A stretch of 64,000 bases of DNA from Candidatus Latescibacterota bacterium. Lineage in GTDB: Bacteria > JAAXHH01. The stretch spans positions 874,382 through 938,381 of the forward strand of contig JAJEAN010000007.1 of assembly GCA_022822725.1 (NCBI GenBank). Reading direction: 5' to 3'. A program made the position numbers and the translations under genes. The notes beneath the pieces were generated by a model. The model saw only the letters and a program-made list of their open reading frames with translations. It made no database searches and had not been told where the DNA came from. Shown in pieces: positions 14,112-28,362 of the stretch. Position 1 is the stretch's first letter. The number at the start of each line of letters is the position of its first letter.

Positions 14112-15173
14112 TCAGGTGTCATTGCCTTTATCCCCGAGATAACGCCATCGGGCACCCGGCCCTCGCCCACGGCATGCCACGTCGCCGGATTTCTTCAGCT
14201 TCGCCAGGAGGGTGCGGATCCATTCCCGACCGACGCCCGGACAGGCGCGTTCCAGGTCGCTCAGACGGAACTCGTCCGGCTGGGAGCGAATGGCCGCGAA
14301 CACGCGCTCGGATTTGGCACCTCGCGGTGAGTCGGCCTGCGAGGCGCGTTCCTCCAACTCGACATAAGCACGCCGGATCATCGTGAAAACGAAGTTGAAC
14401 CAGGGCGTCAGTTCGTGCCGGCCCTCGTGCCAACGATCGGATCTCAGCCTGAGCGATTCGTAATAGCTCTCCCGGGATTCCTCTACGAGGCGCTCAAGGC
14501 TGACGTAGCGGCCGACTTCGTAACCGTGCTGGTACAGCGTCAACAGGGTGAGCAGGCGGGAGACGCGTCCGTTGCCGTCCCGAAAGGGGTGGATGCAAAG
14601 GAAGTCGAGGATAAGGGCGGCGACAGCGATGAGTGGCGGGACGTTTTCCTGGTCGAGTGCATGGCGGTAGTGCCGACAAAGCGCTTCCACGGCCGCTGGC
14701 GTGTCCCCGGCGCTCACGCAACGGAACCGGACCACCGGGGGCTTTCCCTGCGGGAATTCCATGATATCGTTATCGACCCGCTTGAATTGACCGGCGTCGC
14801 CGCTGGCGGATTGGCAAAGGGCATGCAGACGTTGCAGGGTGTCAGCGGTGACGGCAAGATCCGCGTGATTGGCATGGATTTCGTCAAGGGCGCGGCGATA
14901 GTCCTGGACCTCCTGCTCGGAGCGATCGCGTGGTTTCGATCGGCCGAGTACCAGCGGGTGAAGGCGATCCGGGGCGACCACTACCCCCTCGATACGGTTG
15001 GAGGATTCGGCACTCTGAATGACAGCTGTGTCGTGGAACGACCTCAGGGCCTGTGGCGACTGGCGGACGAACAGCGTCTGTTTGCCCCGCGACTCGGCAA
15101 TGTCGTTAAGCAGCCATACCGTGCTCAGCGGTATTTCGTGGTCGCGTAGACGATTGTTGCGAAATGAGTGCAT
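14112..15173 (-). CDS. Fic-domain protein with built-in inhibitory helix
   Basis: 353-residue Fic-family protein, an AMPylator or related nucleotidyl-transferase of protein targets. The complete Fic motif HPFRDGNGR is at 195-203, with catalytic H195. An N-terminal S/TxxxEG-type inhibitory motif (SSNRIEG, 57-63) identifies a class II Fic that restrains its own activity, so no separate antitoxin is needed. The C-terminal 80 residues look like a winged helix. It lies next to VapBC-type and HigA genes, consistent with a stress/defence island. Target is unknown. Confidence 0.85.
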   Translation of the reverse strand: MHSFRNNRLRDHEIPLSTVWLLNDIAESRGKQTLFVRQSPQALRSFHDTAVIQSAESSNRIEGVVVAPDRLHPLVLGRSKPRDRSEQEVQDYRRALDEIHANHADLAVTADTLQRLHALCQSASGDAGQFKRVDNDIMEFPQGKPPVVRFRCVSAGDTPAAVEALCRHYRHALDQENVPPLIAVAALILDFLCIHPFRDGNGRVSRLLTLLTLYQHGYEVGRYVSLERLVEESRESYYESLRLRSDRWHEGRHELTPWFNFVFTMIRRAYVELEERASQADSPRGAKSERVFAAIRSQPDEFRLSDLERACPGVGREWIRTLLAKLKKSGDVACRGRGPGARWRYLGDKGNDT

Positions 15174-15218
15174 GTTTCAGGCTGTTTGATCATGCAACAG
15201 GTCATCGACGGAGATCGA

Positions 15219-15234
15219 AAAACCAGCTGGTTTT
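15219..15234. terminator. palindrome between vapC-like and fic genes, possible terminator
   Basis: A perfect 16-base palindrome, AAAACCAGCTGGTTTT, lies between the PIN toxin stop and the Fic start. Read leftward it folds to a 6-bp stem with an AGCT loop and a T-run, so it may end vapBC transcription. An operator role for fic is the alternative. Confidence 0.35.
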
Positions 15235-15250
15235 ATTGGCAAACACTCCC

Positions 15251-15667
15251 TTATGCCTGCCTTCCGAACTGCCAGCGTTTGACGTCGTCGAACCGGTCAA
15301 AATCCTTGTCGAATGTCGCCACATAATCGCCGGATGCCGCCGCCAACGCGGCGAGATAACAATCCAGGAAATCGAACTTTGTGGATGCGAAACGACGCAG
15401 GGCGTCCAGCATCTCCTCTTGCCTTATGCACCGGACGCCAGCGCATATGATGAGCTTCTGCAATGCCTCGACGATTTCCACTCGATGGGTCTTGTAATGG
15501 GATTCGAGTACCCAGACAGCCTCGGCGACCGTCACTTCGGTCAACACCAGCACGCATTTCCCATCGCTGGCGTCCGAGAACAGTGCACGAGCCGCAGGAG
15601 ATAAACGAACGTGATCGTCCCGAAGAAACCGCAACAGCACGTTTGTATCGAGAAGATACCTGGTCAT
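15251..15667 (-). CDS. vapC: VapC-type PIN-domain toxin
   Basis: 138-residue PIN-domain ribonuclease. Conserved acidic residues expected to hold Mg/Mn are D7 (YLLDTNVLLR), E44 or E49, D99 or D102 (FDFLDCYLA) and D120/D122 (FDKDFD). The ATG at 15667 lies in an ATGA overlap with the antitoxin stop; the longer open frame to 15880 simply runs back through the antitoxin gene. VapC toxins cleave tRNA or rRNA when the antitoxin is lost. The pairing with an AbrB-type partner supports the call. Confidence 0.85.
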   Translation of the reverse strand: MTRYLLDTNVLLRFLRDDHVRLSPAARALFSDASDGKCVLVLTEVTVAEAVWVLESHYKTHRVEIVEALQKLIICAGVRCIRQEEMLDALRRFASTKFDFLDCYLAALAAASGDYVATFDKDFDRFDDVKRWQFGRQA

Positions 15668-15906
15668 TTGTACCGCGCCGCCCTGGCTTCTCGCGCAGCG
15701 TCTCGTTCCTCGGATTTGGATGCGGCCGTTCTGTCGTCTGCCAGAGATCCGTAAAGATCTTTGAGCGTCTCGGTCTGAGCTCTGACCATTACGCCGTCCC
15801 CAATCAACTCGTAGATCAATCGCTGCCTTGGTTTGAGGCGAAGCGCCTTTCGGATTTCGGACGGGATCGTGGTCTGCCACTTATCGGTTAAAGTCGATTT
15901 GATCAT
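15664..15906 (-). CDS. AbrB/SpoVT-type antitoxin
   Basis: 80-residue swapped-hairpin AbrB-type DNA-binding protein. The N-terminal IKSTLTDKWQTTIPSEIRKA is the classic DNA-binding arm, and the C-terminal 30 residues are charged and helical, suited to wrapping the toxin. The stop overlaps the toxin ATG by four bases. Upstream, AAGGAG precedes the tiny frame ATGAACCAATGA, whose stop overlaps this start codon. The flanking inverted repeat is a likely self-regulatory site. Confidence 0.85.
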   Translation of the reverse strand: MIKSTLTDKWQTTIPSEIRKALRLKPRQRLIYELIGDGVMVRAQTETLKDLYGSLADDRTAASKSEERDAAREARAARYK

Positions 15907-15922
15907 TGGTTCATGTCTCCTT

Positions 15923-15963
15923 CCATTGTTTAATTGATCTCATTGTGTTTAAAATAACAATGG
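15923..15963. promoter_or_regulatory. inverted repeat upstream of the AbrB-type antitoxin (likely operator)
   Basis: CCATTGTT at 15923-15930 is mirrored by AACAATGG at 15956-15963 in the AT-rich region just before the antitoxin start. Toxin-antitoxin operons usually repress themselves through such arms. The operator role is inferred. Confidence 0.45.
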
Positions 15964-16093
15964 TAAAGCAGATCTGCAAGCATCACTTGTCTTCAGGATC
16001 GACGGAGATATAACGACATTCGATGAAAACGCCCTTCAGCATTCGGAGCTTATCCTATCCTGCATTATGGAAATGATACGGCTTGTGGATGGA

Positions 16094-16393
16094 TCAGGGC
16101 TTCAGAACCAACGTGGCAGCGGGTTGGATCCCGTCGATGAGGCGAGGTCTGTCTCTAGCGAGCTTTCTGAAGTCGCATTCCACCTGAATGCCATGCCAGA
16201 ACTGATCCGACTGATTGAAGAAGGCGCCAAAGCGTATCGACATGGAAGGCGTTATCGACCGACGGCCATGTACAATCTTGTTGATTGCTCGTGGCGCAAC
16301 CCCGATTGCGCGCGCCATGGCATTTTGTGAAATGCCCATTGGCTTAAGGTACTCTTCAAGAAGGATTTCACCTGGGGTTATGGGTGCTTCCAT
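16094..16393 (-). CDS. higA: HigA-type XRE antitoxin, no HigB partner
   Basis: 99-residue HigA-family protein. It begins [13 protein letters not shown] and has the helix-turn-helix [19 protein letters not shown], then the typical GRRSIT. The usual toxin HigB gene should lie immediately upstream on the same strand. That stretch (16394-16441) is only 48 bases and is followed by the drmC-like stop, so the antitoxin is an orphan. It may regulate the neighbouring operon or be a relic. Confidence 0.8.
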
Positions 16394-16402
16394 GGTGTTA
16401 AC

Positions 16403-16445
16403 CTAGTAATGAGTTGCTGCTCGTATCATGGTAGAATCTTACTAG
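16403..16445. promoter_or_regulatory. CTAGTAA/TTACTAG inverted repeat upstream of higA
   Basis: CTAGTAA (16403-16409) and TTACTAG (16439-16445) form 7-base arms 29 bases apart, spanning the higA upstream region and the drmC-like stop codon. It is a possible HigA operator. The short arms make chance plausible. Confidence 0.25.
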
Positions 16446-16972
16446 TCGACACGCTCAAGAAAGCCAAGTCGCTCAAGCTCTTTCCAGTAATTTGACGCAG
16501 CTCGAGCTACATTCCCTTGTACTACCACACCCATCTCGAGATTGTTCATCAACCCGGGATCGGTCAGGTTTGCACTTCCAATGTAGCCATAGTTCTCGTC
16601 TGCAATGATCAGCTTTGCATGCGATCCCAATAATGAATCCGTCATCTCGGCTCGGGGACGAAAAACGCTTACCTCTGGGCTAGCTACCAAACCTGGCAAC
16701 GAAGCTTTAAGATGAGCAATAGACTCTGTCGTACTGATTATATCAATCCTTACAGATCTCTTCGCTGCTTGACTCAGGGCCAATGCAAAGGGACCCGATG
16801 CTGTTTCCTTACTAAGAAAAATAAAAGGTGCAGACATGAAGAGATTACTATTGGCTCGGGTAACGGTCTCCACTAGAACGCCGTAGGTTGTTCGCTCTCC
16901 CAATCTTCGTATCAGACTGGAACCAAATCGTCCGGGTGGTGTAACAACAAGTTGCGAAATGCCCGAAATCAA
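16442..16972 (-). CDS. drmC: DrmC-type phospholipase D-like protein
   Basis: 176-residue PLD-superfamily protein carrying one HKD motif: H118-x-K120-x4-D125 (SHAKLIIAD), followed by GSANLT. One HKD per chain implies dimerisation to build an active site. It is the last gene of the DISARM-like operon. The TTG start at 16970-16972 overlaps the DrmB stop by four bases (TTGA), showing tight coupling. As I recall, DrmC proteins are longer, so a short or trimmed N-terminus is possible. DrmC is reported to be dispensable for DISARM defence in some tests. Confidence 0.7.
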   Translation of the reverse strand: MISGISQLVVTPPGRFGSSLIRRLGERTTYGVLVETVTRANSNLFMSAPFIFLSKETASGPFALALSQAAKRSVRIDIISTTESIAHLKASLPGLVASPEVSVFRPRAEMTDSLLGSHAKLIIADENYGYIGSANLTDPGLMNNLEMGVVVQGNVARAASNYWKELERLGFLERVD

Positions 16973-18852
16973 AGTGTCGCCGCTCCCGAACTGTAGTGTT
17001 TAGCATAGTCAAAATAGCCAACAGAGACGTTACCGAGGACTTGATCGTTGCCTCCAAAAATAAAGGAACGACTCAAGTTCAGATTGAAAAACCTACAACT
17101 AGTCTCAGCCAAATGAGCACATGCATGACACGCACTACCTTGATCTCTGCACACAGGATCATAGACACAATCACGGTTTTCCATAATTGCCATGAGCCAC
17201 TGACTAAGTGATTGGTCAAAAAGTGCTGTCAATGCACCGATTGTTCTGCTTTCGCGATGATTTCCATAGAGAAAAAACTCTAACGAACTAGGAAGTATAT
17301 ACTCAGACAAACTCGTTCTCTCAAGTCCGCACAATAGCGCTGCTTGTCTAATGCATAAGTGAGAGAGAGTGTGCAGTAGCCCGAAAACCGTCCTCAATTC
17401 TGGTGCATCTACGCCTATCGGTTCGAGAAGATCTACATCATTGGCAAGTTGCACAAAATACCCCAATCTCGAAAGGTTACTGTTGGTACCTGTCGGCGGA
17501 TTGATGTGAAGACCACAAGCAGCCATCCATTCAAGCACTGTCTGAGGGTCGAGCTTAATGCGAATCGCATCTGCACGCACTTTGTCGGCAAAGATTGGAT
17601 GTTTCCCCCCACTACTCTGAGTCGCAGGGAAAGGATTGAGATGTGCATTGTTTGGACCATACTCCGATCGGCTGTATCCGTAAGTTGCGGTGACTATTGG
17701 GAAATCACTCACCAACTCTATGTCCGATATACCCATTTCGCCTGCAATCAACCTTTCTGGCGAATCCTCCCGACGAGAAGCTATCCCTTTCGTAGACGCG
17801 GTCTCACTCGGAAGTAGAGACTCCATGAGCGTGTAGCCGGAGGATACCCAGACATCAGAGCTAACGCCTGTACGCTCTACAATAGAGGTTAGGGTCGCAC
17901 TAGGATCGATCCTCCGGCTACGACGGTCAGCTTGTGACCTCAGACGCTCTATCTCCAGCACCATCTGTTCTGCATCTATCTCGCCTGACTGGAATCTCTC
18001 GGTCACAGTCGCTAGGTCATCAGCTGGAATACTCGATCCTCCAACTGAGTCCTCGGTCAAAATGGTGCTTGCTATTTCAAGAAGGCTTAGATCTGATAAA
18101 TCCGGCAGGCCCAAGAATTTAGCGGCCACTAGAGGTGCCCATATAGATGCATCTCTTTCCAACAGTGCCTCAAGCTTCCTATCGGGGATATTTAACAATG
18201 TAGTTGTGTATGGATAATACGTCTTACCCGCACGGTGAACTTGTATCTCCATTTCACGATTTTCACCGGTGCAATATGGACATACACCAGCATAGACTCT
18301 TTGGGTTGATCTGCAATTTCGACATACCCATCTGAATGAACCTATGTGTTCGCTGCTTCTTGTATCGAGTGCCATCTTTCCTGTACCAGAACTACAATTT
18401 CGACAGGACGGTGGCGTGAGAGGTTCCAAATTACCACAACGATGGATTTTCACAAAGCGAAGTTGAACAAGGCGGCCAGTGTTACAATCCGGGCAAGTGG
18501 CTGTTGGAAGGCGATTTGAACGGGTGAAATCCAGAACACGAGCACAAGATCTATTCTGACACCAGAAAACTTTAGGGAATAACTCGCATTGTCCCTCCTG
18601 AGGTTCGATTAAATCGAATTTGGTGTTGTTCGATAGGACTATGTCTCGCATTCTAGGACGGTTTACCTCATTCCAAGCTCGAACCTCAGCTGCCACCCGC
18701 CGAAGTACGGCACTATAGCTGATTTCTGGTGGCCTCATGCCTCGGATTTCTGTGATTCGGGCAATTGCCATTCCCTTAGTGAAGTCGATAGTCTTTTCCG
18801 GTAAGTAGCCAAATAAAACCTGGTTTTTACCTCTTGTCATCACCTCGGGCAT
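16969..18852 (-). CDS. drmB: DrmB-type DUF1998 zinc-ribbon protein
   Basis: 627-residue DUF1998 protein matching DISARM DrmB in position and layout. The N-terminal part carries many paired cysteines (C98/C103, C120/C123, C150/C153, C177/C180, C191/C194) that should form zinc ribbons. The C-terminal DUF1998 region, about residues 560-590, has the conserved cluster VCRDQGSACHACAH followed by SCRFFN. In DISARM, DrmA and DrmB form the core complex that loads on phage DNA. The gene starts 14 bases after the helicase stop. GC content is clearly below that of the chromosome around it. Confidence 0.8.
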   Translation of the reverse strand: MPEVMTRGKNQVLFGYLPEKTIDFTKGMAIARITEIRGMRPPEISYSAVLRRVAAEVRAWNEVNRPRMRDIVLSNNTKFDLIEPQEGQCELFPKVFWCQNRSCARVLDFTRSNRLPTATCPDCNTGRLVQLRFVKIHRCGNLEPLTPPSCRNCSSGTGKMALDTRSSEHIGSFRWVCRNCRSTQRVYAGVCPYCTGENREMEIQVHRAGKTYYPYTTTLLNIPDRKLEALLERDASIWAPLVAAKFLGLPDLSDLSLLEIASTILTEDSVGGSSIPADDLATVTERFQSGEIDAEQMVLEIERLRSQADRRSRRIDPSATLTSIVERTGVSSDVWVSSGYTLMESLLPSETASTKGIASRREDSPERLIAGEMGISDIELVSDFPIVTATYGYSRSEYGPNNAHLNPFPATQSSGGKHPIFADKVRADAIRIKLDPQTVLEWMAACGLHINPPTGTNSNLSRLGYFVQLANDVDLLEPIGVDAPELRTVFGLLHTLSHLCIRQAALLCGLERTSLSEYILPSSLEFFLYGNHRESRTIGALTALFDQSLSQWLMAIMENRDCVYDPVCRDQGSACHACAHLAETSCRFFNLNLSRSFIFGGNDQVLGNVSVGYFDYAKHYSSGAATL

Positions 18853-18866
18853 CAGTTCTGCTCCTT

Positions 18867-21800
18867 TCAGTTCTGAGATCTTCTAGCCCATTCACTACCA
18901 GTAAAGTCCAAAGTGATGGGTACAGGTTCATCAACGTCGCGAAGACTCCGTAATGGTGGTGGATCCAAAACATCAAATATGGATTTCCCAGCGGAACCTG
19001 GAGCCGACATCTCATCGAACAGGAATACTTGCACCAATCTTTCTATTTCGTCTGAAAACACACGTGCGCCCGGTTCTGCAGAATCTAGTACATTGTAAGC
19101 TTCTTTGAGGAACGGTACAAAGTCGGCATTACTGAGATCGCCTGACGCTATCTTTTGGATTACAAACTGTAGATTGTAAAAATCACTGGGTTTCCCATGC
19201 GTTTGTCGGTTCGCTAAGACTTGCAAAAGGACAGCAAGAAACAGGCCAGGAGCCGTGCGTTCAATGCTAAATCTCGACCATCTGTTAATCGCAGCCGGTT
19301 CTACAAGTTGACCCAAGAACTGGTGAAATTTACTAAAATAGGCATAGTGACTCTGATCCCGCTCCCGGATCGGATTGAAAAAATCAAAGACAATACCTAT
19401 GTGCTTACGCCCAACGCGGCTCGATGCCTGTATGTACTCACCATTCAAACGCGGCATCCCAAAAAACAACATCATATTCAATCTGTCTACATCTACACCA
19501 TGACTGACCATGCTTGTTGCTAGAACGCAATCCGGCAAATTAGAAGATATCGAAGGCTGTTCAAGGTGTGCGAGGGTCCGAGCGACTTCCTCGGTAGTTG
19601 AATTACCCGTGAGTTCACGGACATTCAAGGCAGAAAAACCATCTCTGATCAAGTTGCCATTTACATCTCCATCGATATCTGTATGGATTTGGTCTAATTG
19701 GCGATTTGCGAGGAAGTAAGACAAAGATGTCTTGTAGTTATCCAGAAGTCGTAGATATGCTTCTGATCCCGGGATCAACTGGCCGCCATAGGGATTGCTT
19801 CCTGTCGAAACCCGTTCAAGAAACATAAGTTCTCTATGGTAGTACTCTATCAGTTCGAGCACTGCATTAAGGATCGTTTTGTTATGTGGTACTATGCCTA
19901 CAAAAAGGCGCTGAGGATAATCTTGAGTCTCGGCATAAAACGAAGCTTGGTTGGTCGGACCAAGCCCAGGAAATCTACGCGCATATTGACGCTGTCTGCC
20001 ATAAAGGTGTTCGACTTGGCGTTCAAAGGCTTCGATAGTTGCAGAAGACGCGATTACTTTCAATGGTTCCTGATGACCATATTCCTTTCGTAGCCTTTGA
20101 GAAAACGTCTCGTAGTGAGAGTCAAATGTACCGAGACCCTCTTTCAATAGATGCAATTCATCTTGGATAAAAAGTGTCACGCCTGTTACACGTTCTGGTG
20201 GTGTATGATCCCAATCCTTACGATGACTACAACCGGTTTGACAACAAACACCCATAAAATATCCGTGCTTAGGACATCTACCGTCTACCGCCCCAAATAC
20301 CATCGAAAGTTTACGCTGGTTACCAAGTACCGCGAGTTTGTCAATGGTTCCAAGTATTAGGCTTGGCAAGTACCGATAGATCTCATTATCAACAATGTAC
20401 ACCGGCAAGCGACCGTTTGGAAACCGACAGTCTCGGTTTGTACACCTATGAAGCAACCTTATTTCATCGGGATCAAATTCCACGGTGATAGACTGCGTCT
20501 CACATGCAGGACAACGGACGACTCGTTTCCAGATTTGGCGTTCATCTGGAGTGTTCACTTGGCTCCATACAAGTCTCTCGCTTGCCGTTGCATAGTCAGG
20601 ATGAGGTCGCACTATCTTGTTGGGAGAGCCTCCTTCACCAACGAAATATCCGATACTGAATCCATCTATATCTTGTCCTGTTAACCGTTCGTCATTTTGT
20701 TCTAAACGAACCAACTCCGCTAATCCGACAACGTCAGCAGCACGCTGAGTTTGCTGTAGAGTTAGCAATCGTAAGGGAAACCGCGTCCATGCTGTAACTC
20801 CACCACGCTTACCTCTAAGGCGGTCAAAAAACATATGAAAAACAGCGACACCTAGGTATGCTTCGGTTTTTCCTCCTCCTGTCGGGAAGTAAATGATGTC
20901 TACAAAATTTCGTTCGTTCACCAATTCTGAGTCTGGTTGGCGTAATGCTGCCATTGATGGAATCTGGCTAACAATGAAAACAAGTTGAAATAACCTCCAA
21001 CTCGTTTTGTCTCCCCTACTAAACGTCTCGTTGGTCAATCGAAAGGCCTTCATTATGTCTGGGTCTTCTTCGATCAGTCGAAAACCTTCCGAGAATCGTC
21101 TGATTTCAGACTCGAACAATTGTAGATCAGCATCATATTCCTGCCCATGTAAATCTTCCCATGTAGGATCGTTTTGTACATACCGATGTCGGGTTTCGTG
21201 CCATACCTCCAGATATTCGTCCATGGCTATGAGAACAGATTGTAGTATGGGTATGGGATCACTCGCCAGTCGTTCAAACGGTGCCGGAGGAGTCATGCGA
21301 GTAGAGTAGCGATGTTGGTCATACACAGGTACATGGTTTGTTACAAATTTGACCGACTGACCCTCTTCCGGCTCCACGGCGCAGTTAAATCCACGTGCAA
21401 AGATCGTACGGTCAAATCGAAAACCATGAGGGATAGCACCCAACTCGAATGGTACAACAGACGTGCCTATGATTTTGAAGGCGGCATGTGTATCAAAAAA
21501 GTAACCTTCTTGGTTTCTTGCGTCTGCGTCAATGGCAGAACTATTCGTAAACCGCAGAACGACAATCCACCGATTTTTATCGTAACCAGGTCTTAGGTTG
21601 ATCTCAAATCCCCAACCCCACTTCGGGGCAATTGGAGTTCCAAGTCCTTCGAGGAAACTAGCATATGTTTCATCATCGCGAAGTGCGTCCTCTGGTACTC
21701 CTATTCTTTCATTAAGATCTGTCCCAGTTTTGACGGCGTCCTGAGCACTTAACACAACCTCCTTAGCTCTCAAACACTCCGCCTCCACTTCAGCAATGAA

Positions 21801-22421
21801 GGATGAATCATCGAACTGCCACAGCCCACTATCAGAATGACTAGCACTAACTATTCCTGTTGTCCTACATTCAATCTTCCTGAATTTCGGGCACAGATCC
21901 TCAGTTGGACGTCGTCCTCTTCTTCGAGAATGGGCTCCATCTGATTGGGCGTTCATTGCCTCTACGTCTACGTCCTGGTTCTCCGATCGAGCTTGATATG
22001 GAACGGATTCAGGTCGCGTTAAATCACATACCCACATTTGATAATCAATCTGTTCTTTTCGGTTCGGGAAAACCCGGTAATAGCAGTTCCATGTGAGGGA
22101 CACCTCAATCTTTACTTCTGTGGTAATGTTTGCTAATTGGAAATCCGCACCAAATGCAACTGGTGCGAGTTTCATGCGCAGTTCTCTTAAAAACTTGGAT
22201 GCTACGTGTACATTTCCATCTTCTTCGCTGTCAGATTCTCCTTCAACAGGTAGGCCATCGTTCGGTACAACTGGACGAAGGCTACCAATGAAATACTTAT
22301 CACGTGGGAAATTACGGTGGCACTCTTCTTCTGTGCGCCCCTTGGCTGTATCACAGACCTTGCGAATTAGATATGAGGTCAGAGGTTTCTGCTCACGCCA
22401 CTGTTCATCTTGGGCCGTCAT
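18867..22421 (-). CDS. drmA: DrmA-type superfamily 2 helicase
   Basis: 1184-residue helicase. Walker A FPTGGGKTE is near residue 512. The DExH box is QDELHLL near 753 and motif III SSATIE near 793. The C-terminal lobe has GVDVDRLNMMLFFGMPRLN followed by QASSRVGR (motif VI) near 990, which is characteristic of DrmA. The first 500 residues form a long, mostly beta, non-helicase region, also typical. The CxxC pairs near 650-675 suggest a zinc insertion. The start overlaps the preceding gene by 17 bases. In DISARM, DrmA with DrmB recognises and blocks incoming DNA. Confidence 0.85.
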   Translation of the reverse strand: MTAQDEQWREQKPLTSYLIRKVCDTAKGRTEEECHRNFPRDKYFIGSLRPVVPNDGLPVEGESDSEEDGNVHVASKFLRELRMKLAPVAFGADFQLANITTEVKIEVSLTWNCYYRVFPNRKEQIDYQMWVCDLTRPESVPYQARSENQDVDVEAMNAQSDGAHSRRRGRRPTEDLCPKFRKIECRTTGIVSASHSDSGLWQFDDSSFIAEVEAECLRAKEVVLSAQDAVKTGTDLNERIGVPEDALRDDETYASFLEGLGTPIAPKWGWGFEINLRPGYDKNRWIVVLRFTNSSAIDADARNQEGYFFDTHAAFKIIGTSVVPFELGAIPHGFRFDRTIFARGFNCAVEPEEGQSVKFVTNHVPVYDQHRYSTRMTPPAPFERLASDPIPILQSVLIAMDEYLEVWHETRHRYVQNDPTWEDLHGQEYDADLQLFESEIRRFSEGFRLIEEDPDIMKAFRLTNETFSRGDKTSWRLFQLVFIVSQIPSMAALRQPDSELVNERNFVDIIYFPTGGGKTEAYLGVAVFHMFFDRLRGKRGGVTAWTRFPLRLLTLQQTQRAADVVGLAELVRLEQNDERLTGQDIDGFSIGYFVGEGGSPNKIVRPHPDYATASERLVWSQVNTPDERQIWKRVVRCPACETQSITVEFDPDEIRLLHRCTNRDCRFPNGRLPVYIVDNEIYRYLPSLILGTIDKLAVLGNQRKLSMVFGAVDGRCPKHGYFMGVCCQTGCSHRKDWDHTPPERVTGVTLFIQDELHLLKEGLGTFDSHYETFSQRLRKEYGHQEPLKVIASSATIEAFERQVEHLYGRQRQYARRFPGLGPTNQASFYAETQDYPQRLFVGIVPHNKTILNAVLELIEYYHRELMFLERVSTGSNPYGGQLIPGSEAYLRLLDNYKTSLSYFLANRQLDQIHTDIDGDVNGNLIRDGFSALNVRELTGNSTTEEVARTLAHLEQPSISSNLPDCVLATSMVSHGVDVDRLNMMLFFGMPRLNGEYIQASSRVGRKHIGIVFDFFNPIRERDQSHYAYFSKFHQFLGQLVEPAAINRWSRFSIERTAPGLFLAVLLQVLANRQTHGKPSDFYNLQFVIQKIASGDLSNADFVPFLKEAYNVLDSAEPGARVFSDEIERLVQVFLFDEMSAPGSAGKSIFDVLDPPPLRSLRDVDEPVPITLDFTGSEWARRSQN

Positions 22422-24987
22422 GTGTGTCGCTCCTTCTTAAGGCGCCGAGGGTGCTTGTTATAAACAGGCCGTTCATCTCTCGGACATCCAGGACTTCAAG
22501 TAAAAGCAACGCATCCTGGACATCTCCAAACGTTAACTGGAGTTCGTTGTCGATGATCTCGTCTCGCATATGACCTCCCGAAGCACCTTTCATGATCCAA
22601 GCCTTAAGTCTTCTAGAAAGTTGAATATGGAGGCCGTGCAGCCTATCTCCAGCGTTATGAATGAGATTATAACACTTTGATGTAAAGGGCATTTCAAGCA
22701 CGTCTGATAGTCGTCTCAGGTCTTCTACGTCGCGAGGGCGCATGACCAATCCTCGGGCCCAGAAGTAGATTGCGACAGGAGTCTGAAGCATTGACCCGCG
22801 TTGAACCAACTCGGCATGTAATTCATCAAGGCTATGCCCTGACCGAAGATAGGTCTGTATCCCCTCGCGCGCTTCCTGTTGCCATACGCGAATGTATTCC
22901 ACATGCGTACGAATACTGTGGTGGTTATGGACACGCGAAATCAATAACTCGTATAGGCTTTGCTGGCTCTCGCCATGTATGTAAAGAACTCTGTCTTTTG
23001 GACGGGCTGATCGAATAAAGCGGCGCTCTATTTCGTGGTTTGAACGGACGAAGTTGAGTCTTTCGTCAGTAGCAAATAAGCCAAACCAGCCACCGGAGAA
23101 CGTGACTCCAATTGCATTTTCAACGAAATCCGGTCCCTGATCACCTTCCTCCAATGTTCCCGTTTCATTGGAACTAACAGCGAAATTCTGTAACTCATTG
23201 GTTTCATCAAATTCCGATAAGAGACGATTCAGTTCTTCCGAAGGAGTTCCAATGTCAAGAGGACCTGTTGAATCTATCTCGCGCTTGGTGGGTCGTGGAC
23301 GGCCTTGAACCGACCGGCTCGGGTGGACTATTACTATTTGCTGAGCACGGTTGGGCCGTACCGCTCGTGCTTCCCTATTCCTCAAAACATCCACTGTTCT
23401 TAGCGCACTCTGTATATCTGGCGCTAATGCAGTGTTTAACCAATCTGCCAACCACTTCAGTTGCCAACTCTGATGCGGATAGTAGAGTATGTCGGCTTTC
23501 GCCTGTCGGATTATGGGTAAAATTCTCTTAATGTTATGTCCTGACGGTATGCCAATCAGAAATGGCACTGAAGTATGGTTCGGAACCAACTGGTTAGCCA
23601 CCGGAGCAATCCCTGTCTTCCCCACCGTATTCTCAGATAAAGCGCGTCCAAGACCTGTTATAGATGATACTGAAATCCCCATATCCACAAGATCTGACTC
23701 ACTAACACCTTCATGGGCTAGCAAACTATGAGCAAACATTTCCTTATGAGCTTCGCTCGAAAACACCAATACCCTTTGCTCATCCTCATCTCGATCCTCA
23801 ATGCACAAGTCAACAAGTGCTGACCACATCGGAGGGTCGTGGTCCTCTAACCAGTCCCTACTTTTCTGAAGATGCCGTGTTGCCTGTAGAATCGGTTCAG
23901 CGATCTCTTGTGATTTCAATGCGTTTGCGAATCGACCGAGTCCAGTACAGAGCATGTCAATTGAAGGCTGACGCCAATACTGCGTGCGTTCAAACTCATA
24001 GGTGGACAACGACACAGGTAATCGTTCCAGAATTCTCAGTAATCGATAGCCTATCAATACCGCGTCTCGCGACAACTGCCCATCCACCCCAGACTGGGCA
24101 CGAGATAGTGCATACTGGGCTTGAATTAAACCACTTGTATAATCATCAACGTCCTCTCCCGTTAGCTCGCAAGGACATAGATTGATATCTTGAGCGGTCA
24201 GCAAGAAGAGTTCCACAGGACGTTCTTGAGTTAGCTTTTCTCGCTGGTCTCGACGGTGAAGAAAAGAAGCGGGCCACGTAAAGCGTGGGGAGTCCAAATT
24301 GTGAAAATTTGCATGAACCTCCGATAAGTGATTGCTGGACCATGCAATAGTCGGGATGCGATTTTTTTGTGCGTAATCAATCACTGCAGAAAGCCATGGC
24401 ACTTCCGCTTGGTCATTGCATTCCACTGCGATTAGAAACGGATTTACCTGACGTAGTGAACTAATTGGATCTACGGGCGAGTAGATGCATACCAGCCTTG
24501 GAAGGTCATTCAATTGAAAAGCTTCCGAAGCCATATCTCTTCGCGAAAAGGTAACAGAAAAATACTCTTGAAGAGAATCACGGTTCAAAGTAACACGAGA
24601 TAGATCTTCACGAATCCCTAGACGCGTACCTAAGTAGACCACATCTTTGGCGACCCCCGCTCGGTCCCGAGAATCCAAAAATGCCTTAATAAGGGCTGTT
24701 GCTAACAGTGCACTCGATCGGTGAGGTAACTTCCCTGGCATGCCGATCAGTACTTGATTCTTGTTTTCTATTGCTGACCATAGTAGCGTGGCATTGACCT
24801 TATCAATCCCATCCATATTTACTTTACTCTCGAGTCGTGTCGAAAGTCGATTTTTGCACCACAATTTGATAAACGCGTCATCACGCCAGCAAGGGAATGC
24901 GTTAATGCCGTCGTTAAGGCATTCAACAAGTTTATCTAGATCATTGCTCGTGACTTTATGAGAGTTGTCGGTGCAGGATTCAACCAT
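22405..24987 (-). CDS. DrmE-like protein of unknown fold
   Basis: 860-residue protein immediately before drmA. In class 2 DISARM loci a large protein of unknown function, DrmE, occurs with drmABC, and position and size fit it. Visible features are a loop near residues 82-93 (IGMPGKLPHRSSALLA) that resembles a degenerate P-loop, followed by Rossmann-like strands (VVYLGTRLG, RLVCIYSPVDPI, NRIPTIAWSSN). A C-terminal helical region is also present. I see no nuclease or methylase motif. I prefer the ATG at 24987, eight bases past the preceding stop; an in-frame start at 25119 would overlap that gene by over 120 bases. Confidence 0.55.
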   Translation of the reverse strand: MVESCTDNSHKVTSNDLDKLVECLNDGINAFPCWRDDAFIKLWCKNRLSTRLESKVNMDGIDKVNATLLWSAIENKNQVLIGMPGKLPHRSSALLATALIKAFLDSRDRAGVAKDVVYLGTRLGIREDLSRVTLNRDSLQEYFSVTFSRRDMASEAFQLNDLPRLVCIYSPVDPISSLRQVNPFLIAVECNDQAEVPWLSAVIDYAQKNRIPTIAWSSNHLSEVHANFHNLDSPRFTWPASFLHRRDQREKLTQERPVELFLLTAQDINLCPCELTGEDVDDYTSGLIQAQYALSRAQSGVDGQLSRDAVLIGYRLLRILERLPVSLSTYEFERTQYWRQPSIDMLCTGLGRFANALKSQEIAEPILQATRHLQKSRDWLEDHDPPMWSALVDLCIEDRDEDEQRVLVFSSEAHKEMFAHSLLAHEGVSESDLVDMGISVSSITGLGRALSENTVGKTGIAPVANQLVPNHTSVPFLIGIPSGHNIKRILPIIRQAKADILYYPHQSWQLKWLADWLNTALAPDIQSALRTVDVLRNREARAVRPNRAQQIVIVHPSRSVQGRPRPTKREIDSTGPLDIGTPSEELNRLLSEFDETNELQNFAVSSNETGTLEEGDQGPDFVENAIGVTFSGGWFGLFATDERLNFVRSNHEIERRFIRSARPKDRVLYIHGESQQSLYELLISRVHNHHSIRTHVEYIRVWQQEAREGIQTYLRSGHSLDELHAELVQRGSMLQTPVAIYFWARGLVMRPRDVEDLRRLSDVLEMPFTSKCYNLIHNAGDRLHGLHIQLSRRLKAWIMKGASGGHMRDEIIDNELQLTFGDVQDALLLLEVLDVREMNGLFITSTLGALRRSDTHDGPR

Positions 24988-24995
24988 TATGGTCT

Positions 24996-26825
24996 CTAAT
25001 CTCTCAGATACAGGGAACGCTTCATCGCGATTCGAAAATCCTCCCAAGAGAATACGCGGGAGTCCCATGGTGAACGTAGGTGGATGATTGTATCTGGGCG
25101 GAGTTCGTGGATAAAACATCCCCAGTTGGCTGCTGCAAGAAGGACTGTAACACCGAATTCCTTAGCGCATCGGTGAAGATTGCGCGATACTATGTTTGCG
25201 GTTATCGGGTCTAGTGTGGCACAGTATTCATCTGCAATCCAAACATTGGCGTTTGAGGCTATCAACTTAGCGACCATAGCACGATACCGTTGGCCATTAC
25301 TCAGTTCACGGAATCGTTTAACATAGAGATGGGCCTCGGCTAAGCCAGACACATTCAATGAAAACAGAGCTCTGTCAAATGAGCACCTGCCAAGTGAGTT
25401 AATGAGAGGTTTGGAATTCGTAAGGGGGCTTAAGGTACTTACCTCTGCTCCATCTGGAACCGTTAGCGAGCCGGTGGTACAACGGAGGTTAGATTCAGAG
25501 TCGTCAAGTTGGTGTTTCAATAGAGATAGTAATGAGGTTTTACCTGCACCTGAAGGTCCACAAATCAAGACGATATTGCCGGGTTGTATAGTGAGATCAA
25601 GGTTGGAAAATAGTCTGGTGGATAACATATCACGTTCAACCCCGAAAGCCTCTTGTATCCTCCTTGTTGCTTGCGAGCGGATGAGCAAAGAGGAAAGTTC
25701 AAGTGTACAGCCTCGCATTTCAATACAGGATTTTAAAGGTTTTTCTCTCTGACTAGGACGCTTTGCCGGATAACGGTCCGGGATAGCCAGTGCTTTGATT
25801 CGTTTCCGTACAAACTGCATTGATGAATTTGTAAGACCGGCTAAAAACGTCGGCTTCGGGACACGAAGAATGCGATGGAGCATAGCCCAATCGTCGTCTG
25901 ACAATCTTTCTGGGGATCGAAGCAACAATCGTAGGAGTTTTTCACGTGAAAGACCTTGTTGGGTCTCGATTTCCTTGAGTCGTGTGGCGTAGAATACTTG
26001 AAGATCCACTATACCAGAACTATCCTCCTTCAATATCTCTCCACCTTTAACCCGAGAGTAGTTTTTGAGGATGTAACTCATATCTTTGCTCACCCGGTTA
26101 AGGTTCCCTTCTGTATCCCCGATATAGTGCATGCCGGCAGACTCAACAAACGGGACGTAACGTAACATATCGGCTGTGATTTCTATGAAAAGTGGCTTGA
26201 GCCTTCCGACATGCCAATGGTTCCTTGCGAAATGTGACGCATGCTTGACAAGCTTACTCGCCAGTCCAAGCCCGCGGAACTCGGGTGAAACTACAGTTCG
26301 CGCAATACGGACTACGAGGTTTGTGTATGCCCTAACCGTGTCTTTCTCCCATTTTTTCCAAGTAATCTTACCATCGTCGTCTTCGAACAAATCATCGAAA
26401 AGTGTTTTTCTTGGCTTGTTCATCATGAACGCCGTGGCGAGCTCTATGTATCCGAGAACTGTTGGAAGAAGCGGATCATTGGAACATACTATGAGTGGGA
26501 CGCGACGTCCGTGTAACACTTTTCCACGATAGTGATATTCCTCCAGCTGATGGTAAGCTTCCAGTTCGTCCTCAGTTTGGATTTCCTTGATGGTGATTCT
26601 GACCTTCTTCTGTCCGATATGCAATTTGTCTCTAGCCTCGTATGCTGGCAGGACTTGTGCTAGGCCGTTCTCGCACCGCACGTAGGCAAGGTCGTTTCGT
26701 TTTACTACGACATTATCCTTACGTCCAATGCAGCAAAAACGGTGAGCCCTGAGAGTCGGTCGCCTCTTTCCAGATAACTTGTAAATTTTGGCACAAGGCT
26801 CATATTTGATTGACAACACTTTCAT
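24996..26825 (-). CDS. GNAT acyltransferase-ABC ATPase fusion protein
   Basis: 609-residue two-domain protein, the architecture grouped as COG2401 (ABC-type ATPase fused to an acetyltransferase). The GNAT domain spans about 74-260, with the acyl-CoA loop RGLGLAS (184-190) and an earlier YHYRGK. The ABC domain has Walker A GPSGAGKT (423-430), a signature LSNGQ (508-512) and Walker B VWIADE ending at D532-E533. At the H-loop position the sequence is LLAAANW, with no histidine. No membrane segments are present, so it is not a transporter. It is the first gene of the DISARM-like operon. ATG 26825 is preferred; an in-frame TTG at 26846 is possible. Confidence 0.8.
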   Translation of the reverse strand: MKVLSIKYEPCAKIYKLSGKRRPTLRAHRFCCIGRKDNVVVKRNDLAYVRCENGLAQVLPAYEARDKLHIGQKKVRITIKEIQTEDELEAYHQLEEYHYRGKVLHGRRVPLIVCSNDPLLPTVLGYIELATAFMMNKPRKTLFDDLFEDDDGKITWKKWEKDTVRAYTNLVVRIARTVVSPEFRGLGLASKLVKHASHFARNHWHVGRLKPLFIEITADMLRYVPFVESAGMHYIGDTEGNLNRVSKDMSYILKNYSRVKGGEILKEDSSGIVDLQVFYATRLKEIETQQGLSREKLLRLLLRSPERLSDDDWAMLHRILRVPKPTFLAGLTNSSMQFVRKRIKALAIPDRYPAKRPSQREKPLKSCIEMRGCTLELSSLLIRSQATRRIQEAFGVERDMLSTRLFSNLDLTIQPGNIVLICGPSGAGKTSLLSLLKHQLDDSESNLRCTTGSLTVPDGAEVSTLSPLTNSKPLINSLGRCSFDRALFSLNVSGLAEAHLYVKRFRELSNGQRYRAMVAKLIASNANVWIADEYCATLDPITANIVSRNLHRCAKEFGVTVLLAAANWGCFIHELRPDTIIHLRSPWDSRVFSWEDFRIAMKRSLYLRD

Positions 26826-26952
26826 GTTGAGATTATCCCATTCCAAAAGGTAATACTATAACTTGACAAACTGCTGATTGTCCCGACTAGGTTGTGCTTG
26901 ATATACTGCACGACATTCAAGTACAAAATCCTAAGGCAGAACTACTATTTCT
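26826..26952. other. spacer upstream of the DISARM-like operon
   Basis: AT-rich spacer between the sulfatase stop and the operon's first gene. The operon promoter should lie here, read leftward, but I see no strong -35/-10 pair. It also marks the right edge of the low-GC block. Confidence 0.35.
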
Positions 26953-28362
26953 TTAACCCGGCTCCCCGCAATACGCCTCATCCCCCACCTCCTCCTGCAA
27001 CCTTTTCAACTCCGCCTTCAACTCTTCGACCACGTCCGCATACTCGGGATCCGCATACACGCTGTTAAGTTCGCAGGGGTCCTTCTCCAGGTCGAAGAGC
27101 TCCCATTCCGGCTGCGTCTTCGGGCCGATCGCGCCTTCCTGGCCAAGCGGGTCGCCGTAATAGTAGATCAGCTTGTACCTCAGGGTCCGGACGCCGTAGT
27201 GGGCGCAGACGTTGTGGTGCGCGCCGTGCATCCAGTACCGGTAGTACATGGACGTCTGCCAGTCGGCCGGGGTCTCGCCGCCCAGCAGGGGCCGAAACGA
27301 ACGTCCCTGGAACGAAGAAGGAATGTCCACGCTCGCGCAGTCAAGGAAGGTGGCCGGGAAGTCGACGTTCAGGATCATGTCGCCGTTCACGGTACCCGGC
27401 GCCACTTCCCTCGGGTAACGGATAAGGAAGGGCATGCGCAGGGACTCTTCGTACATGAAGCGCTTGTCGTACCACCCGTGATCGCCAAGGAAGAACCCCT
27501 GGTCGGACGTGTAGATCACGATCGTGTCCTCCGCGATGCCATCCTCTTCTATGTAATCCAGCAAACGGCCCACGTTGTCATCGATCGAGGCGATGCACCG
27601 CAGGTAGTCCTTGATGTACCGCTGGTACTTCCAGCTCTTTTCCTCGGCCGGCGTCAGGCCTTCCGGCACGGTCACCTTCAGATCCTCGGCGTTGAGATCG
27701 CGCTCGACCCGCATCCGGGCGGCCGCGGCGGCCTGGGCGCGGTTCGAATAGTCGTCGTTGAAGGTCTCCGGCTCCGGGATGTCCTCGTCTTCGTACATGT
27801 CGGCGTGCTTGTCGTCTGGCTCCCAGGACCGGTGCGGCGCCTTGTGATGCACCATGAGGCAGAACGGGCGGTTCCGGTCGCGGCCTCTGAGCCAGTCCAG
27901 GGAATAGTCCGTGATGAGATCGGTGACGTACCCATTTCGCGTCGTCCGCTCTCCCATCCTGATCATCTCGGGATCGTGGTACAGGCCCTGGCCGGGCAGC
28001 ACGTCCCAGAAGTCGAATCCCGTGGGGTCGTGGATGCCTCCGTGGCCGAGATGCCACTTGCCAATCACCGCCGTCTGGTACCCATGTTCCTGCAGTACCT
28101 TGGGATAGTTCAGCAACCGGCCGTCCAGGTGGGTGGACAGGGTGGTGACGCCGTTTACGTGGTTGTACGTGCCCGTCAGGATGGCCGCCCGGCTGGGCGT
28201 GCAGATGGAATTGGTGCAGAAGCAGTTGTCGAACCGCATGCCTTCTGACGCGATACGATCGATGTGAGGAGTCTGGTTTATCCGACTGCCATAGGCGCCG
28301 ATGGCGTGGGCCGCGTGGTCGTCGGACATGATGAACAGGATGTTCGGACGTGATTGGGACAT
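26953..28362 (-). CDS. type I sulfatase
   Basis: 469-residue arylsulfatase-family enzyme. The sulfatase signature is C54-T-P-S-R58, in which the cysteine becomes formylglycine. Metal-binding acidic residues are visible at the start (MSDDHA, D14/D15). No signal peptide is seen, so it acts in the cytoplasm or is exported by another route. Such sulfatases desulfate glycans or small organosulfates, and their abundance suits a marine heterotroph. The activating enzyme FGE is not encoded in this window. It is followed downstream by the DISARM-like operon on the same strand, but base composition changes sharply between them. Confidence 0.9.

Follow-up and report, generated by a model that had tools for sequence, protein, structure and literature searches.

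DISARM systems of class 1 have the gene order drmD-drmMI-drmA-drmB-drmC, those of class 2 carry drmE and drmMII, and methylation is believed to protect self DNA from DISARM. The operon described here lies in a stretch of 64 kb of DNA from a Candidatus Latescibacterota bacterium (the window). It has the restriction genes of such a system and no DNA methylase, and it is headed by a gene encoding a fusion of a GNAT domain and an ABC ATPase (GNAT-ABC). How, then, would self DNA be told from foreign DNA? The first-pass annotation of the window had proposed that the leading gene may replace the methylase. The methylase-free GNAT-ABC branch of DISARM-like operons is conserved and mobile, and in it GNAT-ABC would functionally replace the methylase.

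The five genes run leftward on the minus strand from 26825 to 16442. They encode GNAT-ABC (24996-26825, 609 aa from ATG; an upstream TTG would shift the start to 26846), a DrmE-like protein (22405-24987, 860 aa), a DrmA-type SF2 helicase (18867-22421, 1184 aa), a DrmB-type DUF1998/MZB zinc protein (16969-18852, 627 aa) and a short DrmC-like PLD nuclease with one HKD motif (16442-16972, 176 aa). The junctions are, in the same order, an 8-base gap, a 17-base overlap, a 14-base gap and a 4-base overlap; the open reading frames and the tight spacing first described for this block, with overlaps of 4-17 and gaps of 8-14 bases, were confirmed. An alternative in-frame ATG of the DrmE-like gene at 25119 would overlap GNAT-ABC, and alignment with the relatives makes it an unlikely start. 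A second copy of the operon was not found in searches of the window's own lineage.

The gene identities, initially read from motifs, were borne out by profile searches, in which each protein matched its family. The DrmE-like protein scored 156 bits against Pfam DrmE_C (PF24957, cut-off 27) and 64 bits against NCBIfam DrmE_fam, under the cut-off of 80. DrmA and DrmB scored 570 and 183 bits with the PADLOC models, and 441 of a cut-off of 950 and 75 of a cut-off of 240, respectively, with the NCBIfam DISARM equivalogs. Since the matches to the NCBIfam models lie below the curated cut-offs, the operon proteins are divergent members of these families. The DrmC-like protein matched PADLOC DrmC with 65 bits, and also PLDc_2, and aligned only to positions 100-252 of the 256 of the DrmC model; with most DrmC models it has just the C-terminal portion in common. 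The catalytic motifs of DrmA (TGGGKT, DELHL, SAT and QASSRVGR), the six paired-Cys motifs of DrmB and the HxK(x4)D(x6)GSxN motif of the DrmC-like protein are all intact. In a profile comparison, DrmA also matched the DrmA of Serratia (7s9v) with 302 bits; this alignment stops before the methyl-sensing valine of the Serratia protein. No match to DrmD was obtained at the locus.

The operon is a horizontal insertion of low GC content. A block at 16410-26965, delimited by the GC profile and by blastn against congeners, holds exactly the five operon genes, and the GC content is 0.45-0.49 across the operon compared to 0.60-0.64 further out. When the window was compared by blastn with seven congener stretches, the operon was absent between higA and a sulfatase gene. 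In four congeners the sulfatase gene follows higA within about 100-260 bases with no operon between them, and in a fifth (G010) this site is taken by another low-GC insert, of 12 kb. That insert (L254, 3770-15004) encodes a C5 methylase, an AAA protein with a weak SspF match, proteins of 532 and 1728 aa without a PADLOC match, and a nicking-endonuclease-like protein; it is probably another defence cassette. The higA-sulfatase site is a defence hotspot, where methylase-headed and GNAT-ABC-headed cassettes occupy one place. In the window, genes of toxin-antitoxin type border the insertion site. They occupy 14112-16393, downstream of the operon and likewise on the minus strand, and encode a HigA-type antitoxin (16094-16393), a VapB-like antitoxin and a PIN-domain toxin (~15251-15906) and a Fic-domain protein (14112-15173).

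The statement of the first-pass annotation that no methylase stands in or beside the operon held when searched for directly: there was no family-model match (PADLOC, Pfam, NCBIfam) in the operon or among the adjacent genes tested, and tblastn with seven methylases found none anywhere in the 64 kb window. Far from the window, the source genome encodes three N6_N4_Mtase-type proteins and one N6_Mtase-type protein; a C5 methylase was not found in it. Of 392 Planctomycetota genomes, 29 encode DrmA homologues. A PglX-type or C5 methylase accompanied 16 of the 20 Planctomycetota DrmA loci without GNAT-ABC (two of the other four stretches end just upstream), compared to none of the four where GNAT-ABC is present, in the same search (Fisher p 0.0066), a contrast that does not amount to four independent events, as the four GNAT-ABC-linked DrmA proteins share their ancestry.

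Outside this group, the DrmA loci nearest to it are on plasmids of haloarchaea, Rubrobacter, Roseomonas and Allocoleopsis, and five of these six loci have a methylase at a distance of ~12 kb or less. At the Rubrobacter locus, the slot ahead of the genes leading into drmA, which GNAT-ABC occupies here, is filled by a protein with DNA-methylase motifs. A 645-aa neighbour in Rubrobacter was considered as a GNAT-ABC and rejected, its translation having methylase motifs. The drmA-B-PLD operons of the Halomicrobium and Haladaptatus plasmids have no methylase annotated inside the operon. These haloarchaeal operons (L007, 9243-18454; L008, 11926-20423) are without GNAT-ABC, and the one of Halomicrobium has drmE in front. 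A tblastn search of plasmids with the DrmE-like protein gave no match.

A scan of genome contigs with a GNAT-ABC alignment returned two full-length relatives well above the rest, one in Gemmatimonadetes (Gemmatimonadota, L100) and one in Phycisphaerales (Planctomycetota, L101), 66 and 60 % identical to the GNAT-ABC of the window, respectively. Searching with a two-sequence GNAT-ABC alignment gave nothing past the already known match. In both relatives, tblastn located drmE, drmA, drmB and a short drmC-like gene directly behind GNAT-ABC, which is the arrangement of the window. Mobility genes are close by: an integrase gene after the L100 operon, and DUF2924 and serine recombinase genes just before the L101 operon. 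A serine recombinase likewise precedes a GNAT-ABC with 40 % identity (L019), the contig of which stops a short way beyond it.

A survey of ~390 genomes each of Gemmatimonadota and Planctomycetota (~800 in total) added one further case per phylum. In a second Gemmatimonadota genome (G754), GNAT-ABC is divergent from the adjoining drmE-drmA-drmB. The GNAT-ABC of G754 is 37 % identical to that of the window while its DrmA is 52 % identical, from which it seems that modification and restriction genes are swapped independently of each other, in the manner of restriction-modification systems. The four GNAT-ABC-linked DrmA proteins (window, L100, L101 and G754) form one clade with a support of 100/100, and their hosts belong to different phyla. 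The Planctomycetota case (G251; L185, 292-6861) has the order integrase, GNAT-ABC (711 aa), HerA, an uncharacterised gene, PLD and AAA, and the GNAT-ABC of G754 is nearer to this HerA-linked protein. The HerA/DUF87 protein is Mad8-like and a 404-aa protein has no Pfam match; the operon is possibly an undescribed defence system. The results named beforehand as contrary to a GNAT-ABC branch without methylase did not appear: no methylase was found in the operons of L100, L101 and G754 (tblastn, with family scans of the main flanking ORFs in L100 and L101), no housekeeping function was matched by GNAT-ABC, and the DrmA and DrmB models matched, below the NCBIfam cut-offs.

GNAT-ABC passes the Pfam cut-offs for ABC_tran (57 bits) and Acetyltransf_1 (27 bits), and the pairing of GNAT and ABC domains is known as COG2401. 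Based on Pfam, alignment with the relatives and AlphaFold2 models (mean pLDDT 79 and 81), and with residues counted from the TTG at 26846, the protein consists of an N-terminal beta-rich domain (~8-80), the GNAT domain (~80-260), a helical middle domain (~270-370) and the ABC ATPase (~375-600). The phage homologues have an H-loop His in the ABC ATPase (ATTH). Each of the four fusion proteins aligned has another residue there (AAAN, AAAS, AAPD), and ATP hydrolysis may therefore be weak, slow or regulated. A structure search with the whole model was swamped by ABC transporters, and for this reason the GNAT half was modelled and searched separately. It gave generic GNAT matches, all of them weak, including the tRNA cytidine acetyltransferase TmcA/NAT10 and the AtaT toxin; the predicted resemblance to TmcA/NAT10 would be compatible with a nucleic-acid base as substrate and is no proof of one. 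The Mom family of phage Mu gave no model match to GNAT-ABC (Pfam, up to E 0.1). With the PADLOC models of MADS, a local 44-bit match to Mad3 was seen in the ABC region, and a 22-bit match to Mad8 in the same protein. A MADS identity was rejected, because the Mad3 match is confined to the ABC region and PADLOC found none of the other Mad genes of this eight-gene system in the operon.

At 33-37 % identity, the ABC half of GNAT-ABC resembles an ABC protein encoded by SSU5-type phage-plasmids and related phages, and the GNAT half aligns, with common motifs, to a GNAT protein encoded just downstream of the phage ABC gene, which places GNAT-ABC among GNAT proteins coupled to a P-loop ABC protein of the SSU5-phage type. 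The order in the phage and provirus modules is helicase, ParB, ParB/Srx, ABC, GNAT and terminase, and this block was observed in SSU5-type phage-plasmids and in Pseudomonas and Rhizobium phages (L013-L018, L024). Its ABC protein is annotated as an ABC transporter, and is more likely part of a DNA-modification or packaging module. A viral scan with the single protein gave no match. The archaeal and planctomycetal relatives are fused with ABC preceding GNAT, and several of them adjoin ParB or virion-type genes, the neighbours being judged by sequence and not by family models. In the DISARM-linked fusions GNAT precedes ABC, and their N-terminal and middle domains are absent from the other relatives. 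According to a jumbo-phage survey (PMC7824862), a GNAT protein coupled with an ABC ATPase has been predicted to modify a DNA base with an acyl group, in a reaction that is uncharacterised.

The best reading of the locus, to which we assign a probability of about 0.55, is an anti-phage defence of the restriction-modification type, in which a DISARM-like restriction module has GNAT-ABC as its modification arm, putting a non-methyl, probably acyl, self-mark on host DNA. DNA as the target, the acyl group and the sensing by DrmAB are all presumed in this proposal. GNAT-ABC, using acyl-CoA and its ABC ATPase, would modify bases of the host DNA. By homology, DrmAB would be kept off the modified DNA and load on unmodified phage DNA, after which DrmA would translocate or unwind, with cutting by the PLD protein or by a nuclease that is recruited. 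For the Serratia DrmAB, methylated DNA reduces the ATPase activity, and a DrmA residue has been proposed to read the base (PMC9142583). That GNAT-ABC replaces the methylase is argued for by the five-gene order kept in three genomes and the linkage of GNAT-ABC to drmE-A-B in a fourth, by the distribution of methylases (16/20 vs 0/4), by a second operon of restriction type, unrelated to this one (HerA, PLD, AAA), that a GNAT-ABC gene also heads, and by the published prediction of DNA-base modification for a GNAT coupled to an ABC ATPase. The replacement first suggested for the leading gene is thereby partly supported; the marking of self DNA is inferred. Counting against a self-mark, the substrates of GNAT domains also include proteins, tRNA and small molecules, and the operon is without the ParB-like genes of the phage cassette. 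Published biochemistry was not found for any GNAT-ABC. The fuller scheme, an acylated-base self-mark sensed by DrmAB with a GNAT-ABC captured from phages and portable between DrmEABC and HerA-PLD-AAA cassettes, is offered more tentatively, at a little under even odds.

GNAT-ABC could instead be an effector or sensor, which on infection acetylates tRNA, protein or a nucleotide, or which detects phage DNA or proteins through its ABC ATPase and licenses DrmAB. A sensor role is common for ABC ATPases in defence, the weak fold matches obtained with the GNAT half include the GNAT toxin AtaT, which acts on aminoacyl-tRNA, and toxin-antitoxin genes adjoin the operon. Such a role is nevertheless unlikely, at perhaps one chance in four, as GNAT-ABC fills the slot of a modification gene and occurs where methylases do not, and as its phage and provirus homologues adjoin terminase genes, not antitoxins.

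Less probable still is that no modification is needed, with DrmAB recognising foreign DNA by its structure (5' overhang or single strand) and GNAT-ABC as an unrelated accessory. The tight co-occurrence of GNAT-ABC with one DrmA clade, in operonic and divergent layouts, is hard to explain for an unrelated accessory, even if methylase-free haloarchaeal drmE-A-B-C operons would be of the same kind and 4 of the 20 Planctomycetota DrmA stretches, two of them ending just upstream, have no methylase. DrmAB does favour 5'-overhang DNA and is autoinhibited (PMC9142583), as recognition by structure would have it. We regard it as quite improbable that a methylase elsewhere in the genome protects self and that GNAT-ABC has another role. 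The four N6_N4_Mtase- and N6_Mtase-type proteins away from the window could serve in this way, but a newly inserted mobile operon would have to rely on whatever each host carries, and the relatives in other phyla likewise lack a linked methylase.

If the self-mark proposed here is correct, the DrmAB engine pairs with a different chemical mark, which would be new base chemistry in restriction-modification. As the five-gene arrangement was found in at least two further phyla, Gemmatimonadota and Planctomycetota, this may be a way in which bacteria mark their own DNA with non-methyl groups. The operon would also provide a compact route, directly testable in a laboratory strain, to the role of the GNAT-ABC proteins that have long been predicted in phages and archaea.

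Compared to DISARM, the operon has drmA, a separate drmB next to it and a drmC-like PLD gene after drmB, in the same order, together with the class marker drmE. It differs in having GNAT-ABC at its head and a short DrmC-like protein, and its DrmA falls in a separate clade, ~300 bits from the Serratia protein. As neither DrmMI nor DrmMII is encoded in the operon, and a methylase is one of the features by which DISARM is defined, "DISARM-like" is the right name and "DISARM" is not. The restriction half belongs among the many uncharacterised DISARM-like classes that exist (PMC12458937). ARMADA and Druantia share the YprA-family helicase, but theirs are of other clades with fused nucleases, and ARMADA has a PglX-like methylase. 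The predicted base-acylation system (PMC7824862 and a study cited there) has homologous halves with common GNAT and ABC signature motifs; it is split or in the order ABC-GNAT, without the extra domains, and stands in a packaging locus, whereas here the order is GNAT-ABC and the locus is a restriction operon. Literature searches found no paper describing GNAT-ABC with drmEABC, and earlier work on GNAT/ABC systems could list the operon. Dpd/BRIGADE (PMC12458937) likewise pairs a YprA/DrmA-family helicase and a PLD nuclease, also without the N-terminal helical bundle, with a presumed non-methyl DNA modification. There the modification is 7-deazaguanine, for which no synthesis or insertion genes were found among the scanned operon and flanking proteins; here DrmA and DrmB are separate proteins and the presumed modifier is GNAT-ABC. 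The DISARM-like restriction half and, in Dpd/BRIGADE, the precedent for non-methyl modification were thus already known, and the pairing of GNAT-ABC with drmEABC is probably new.
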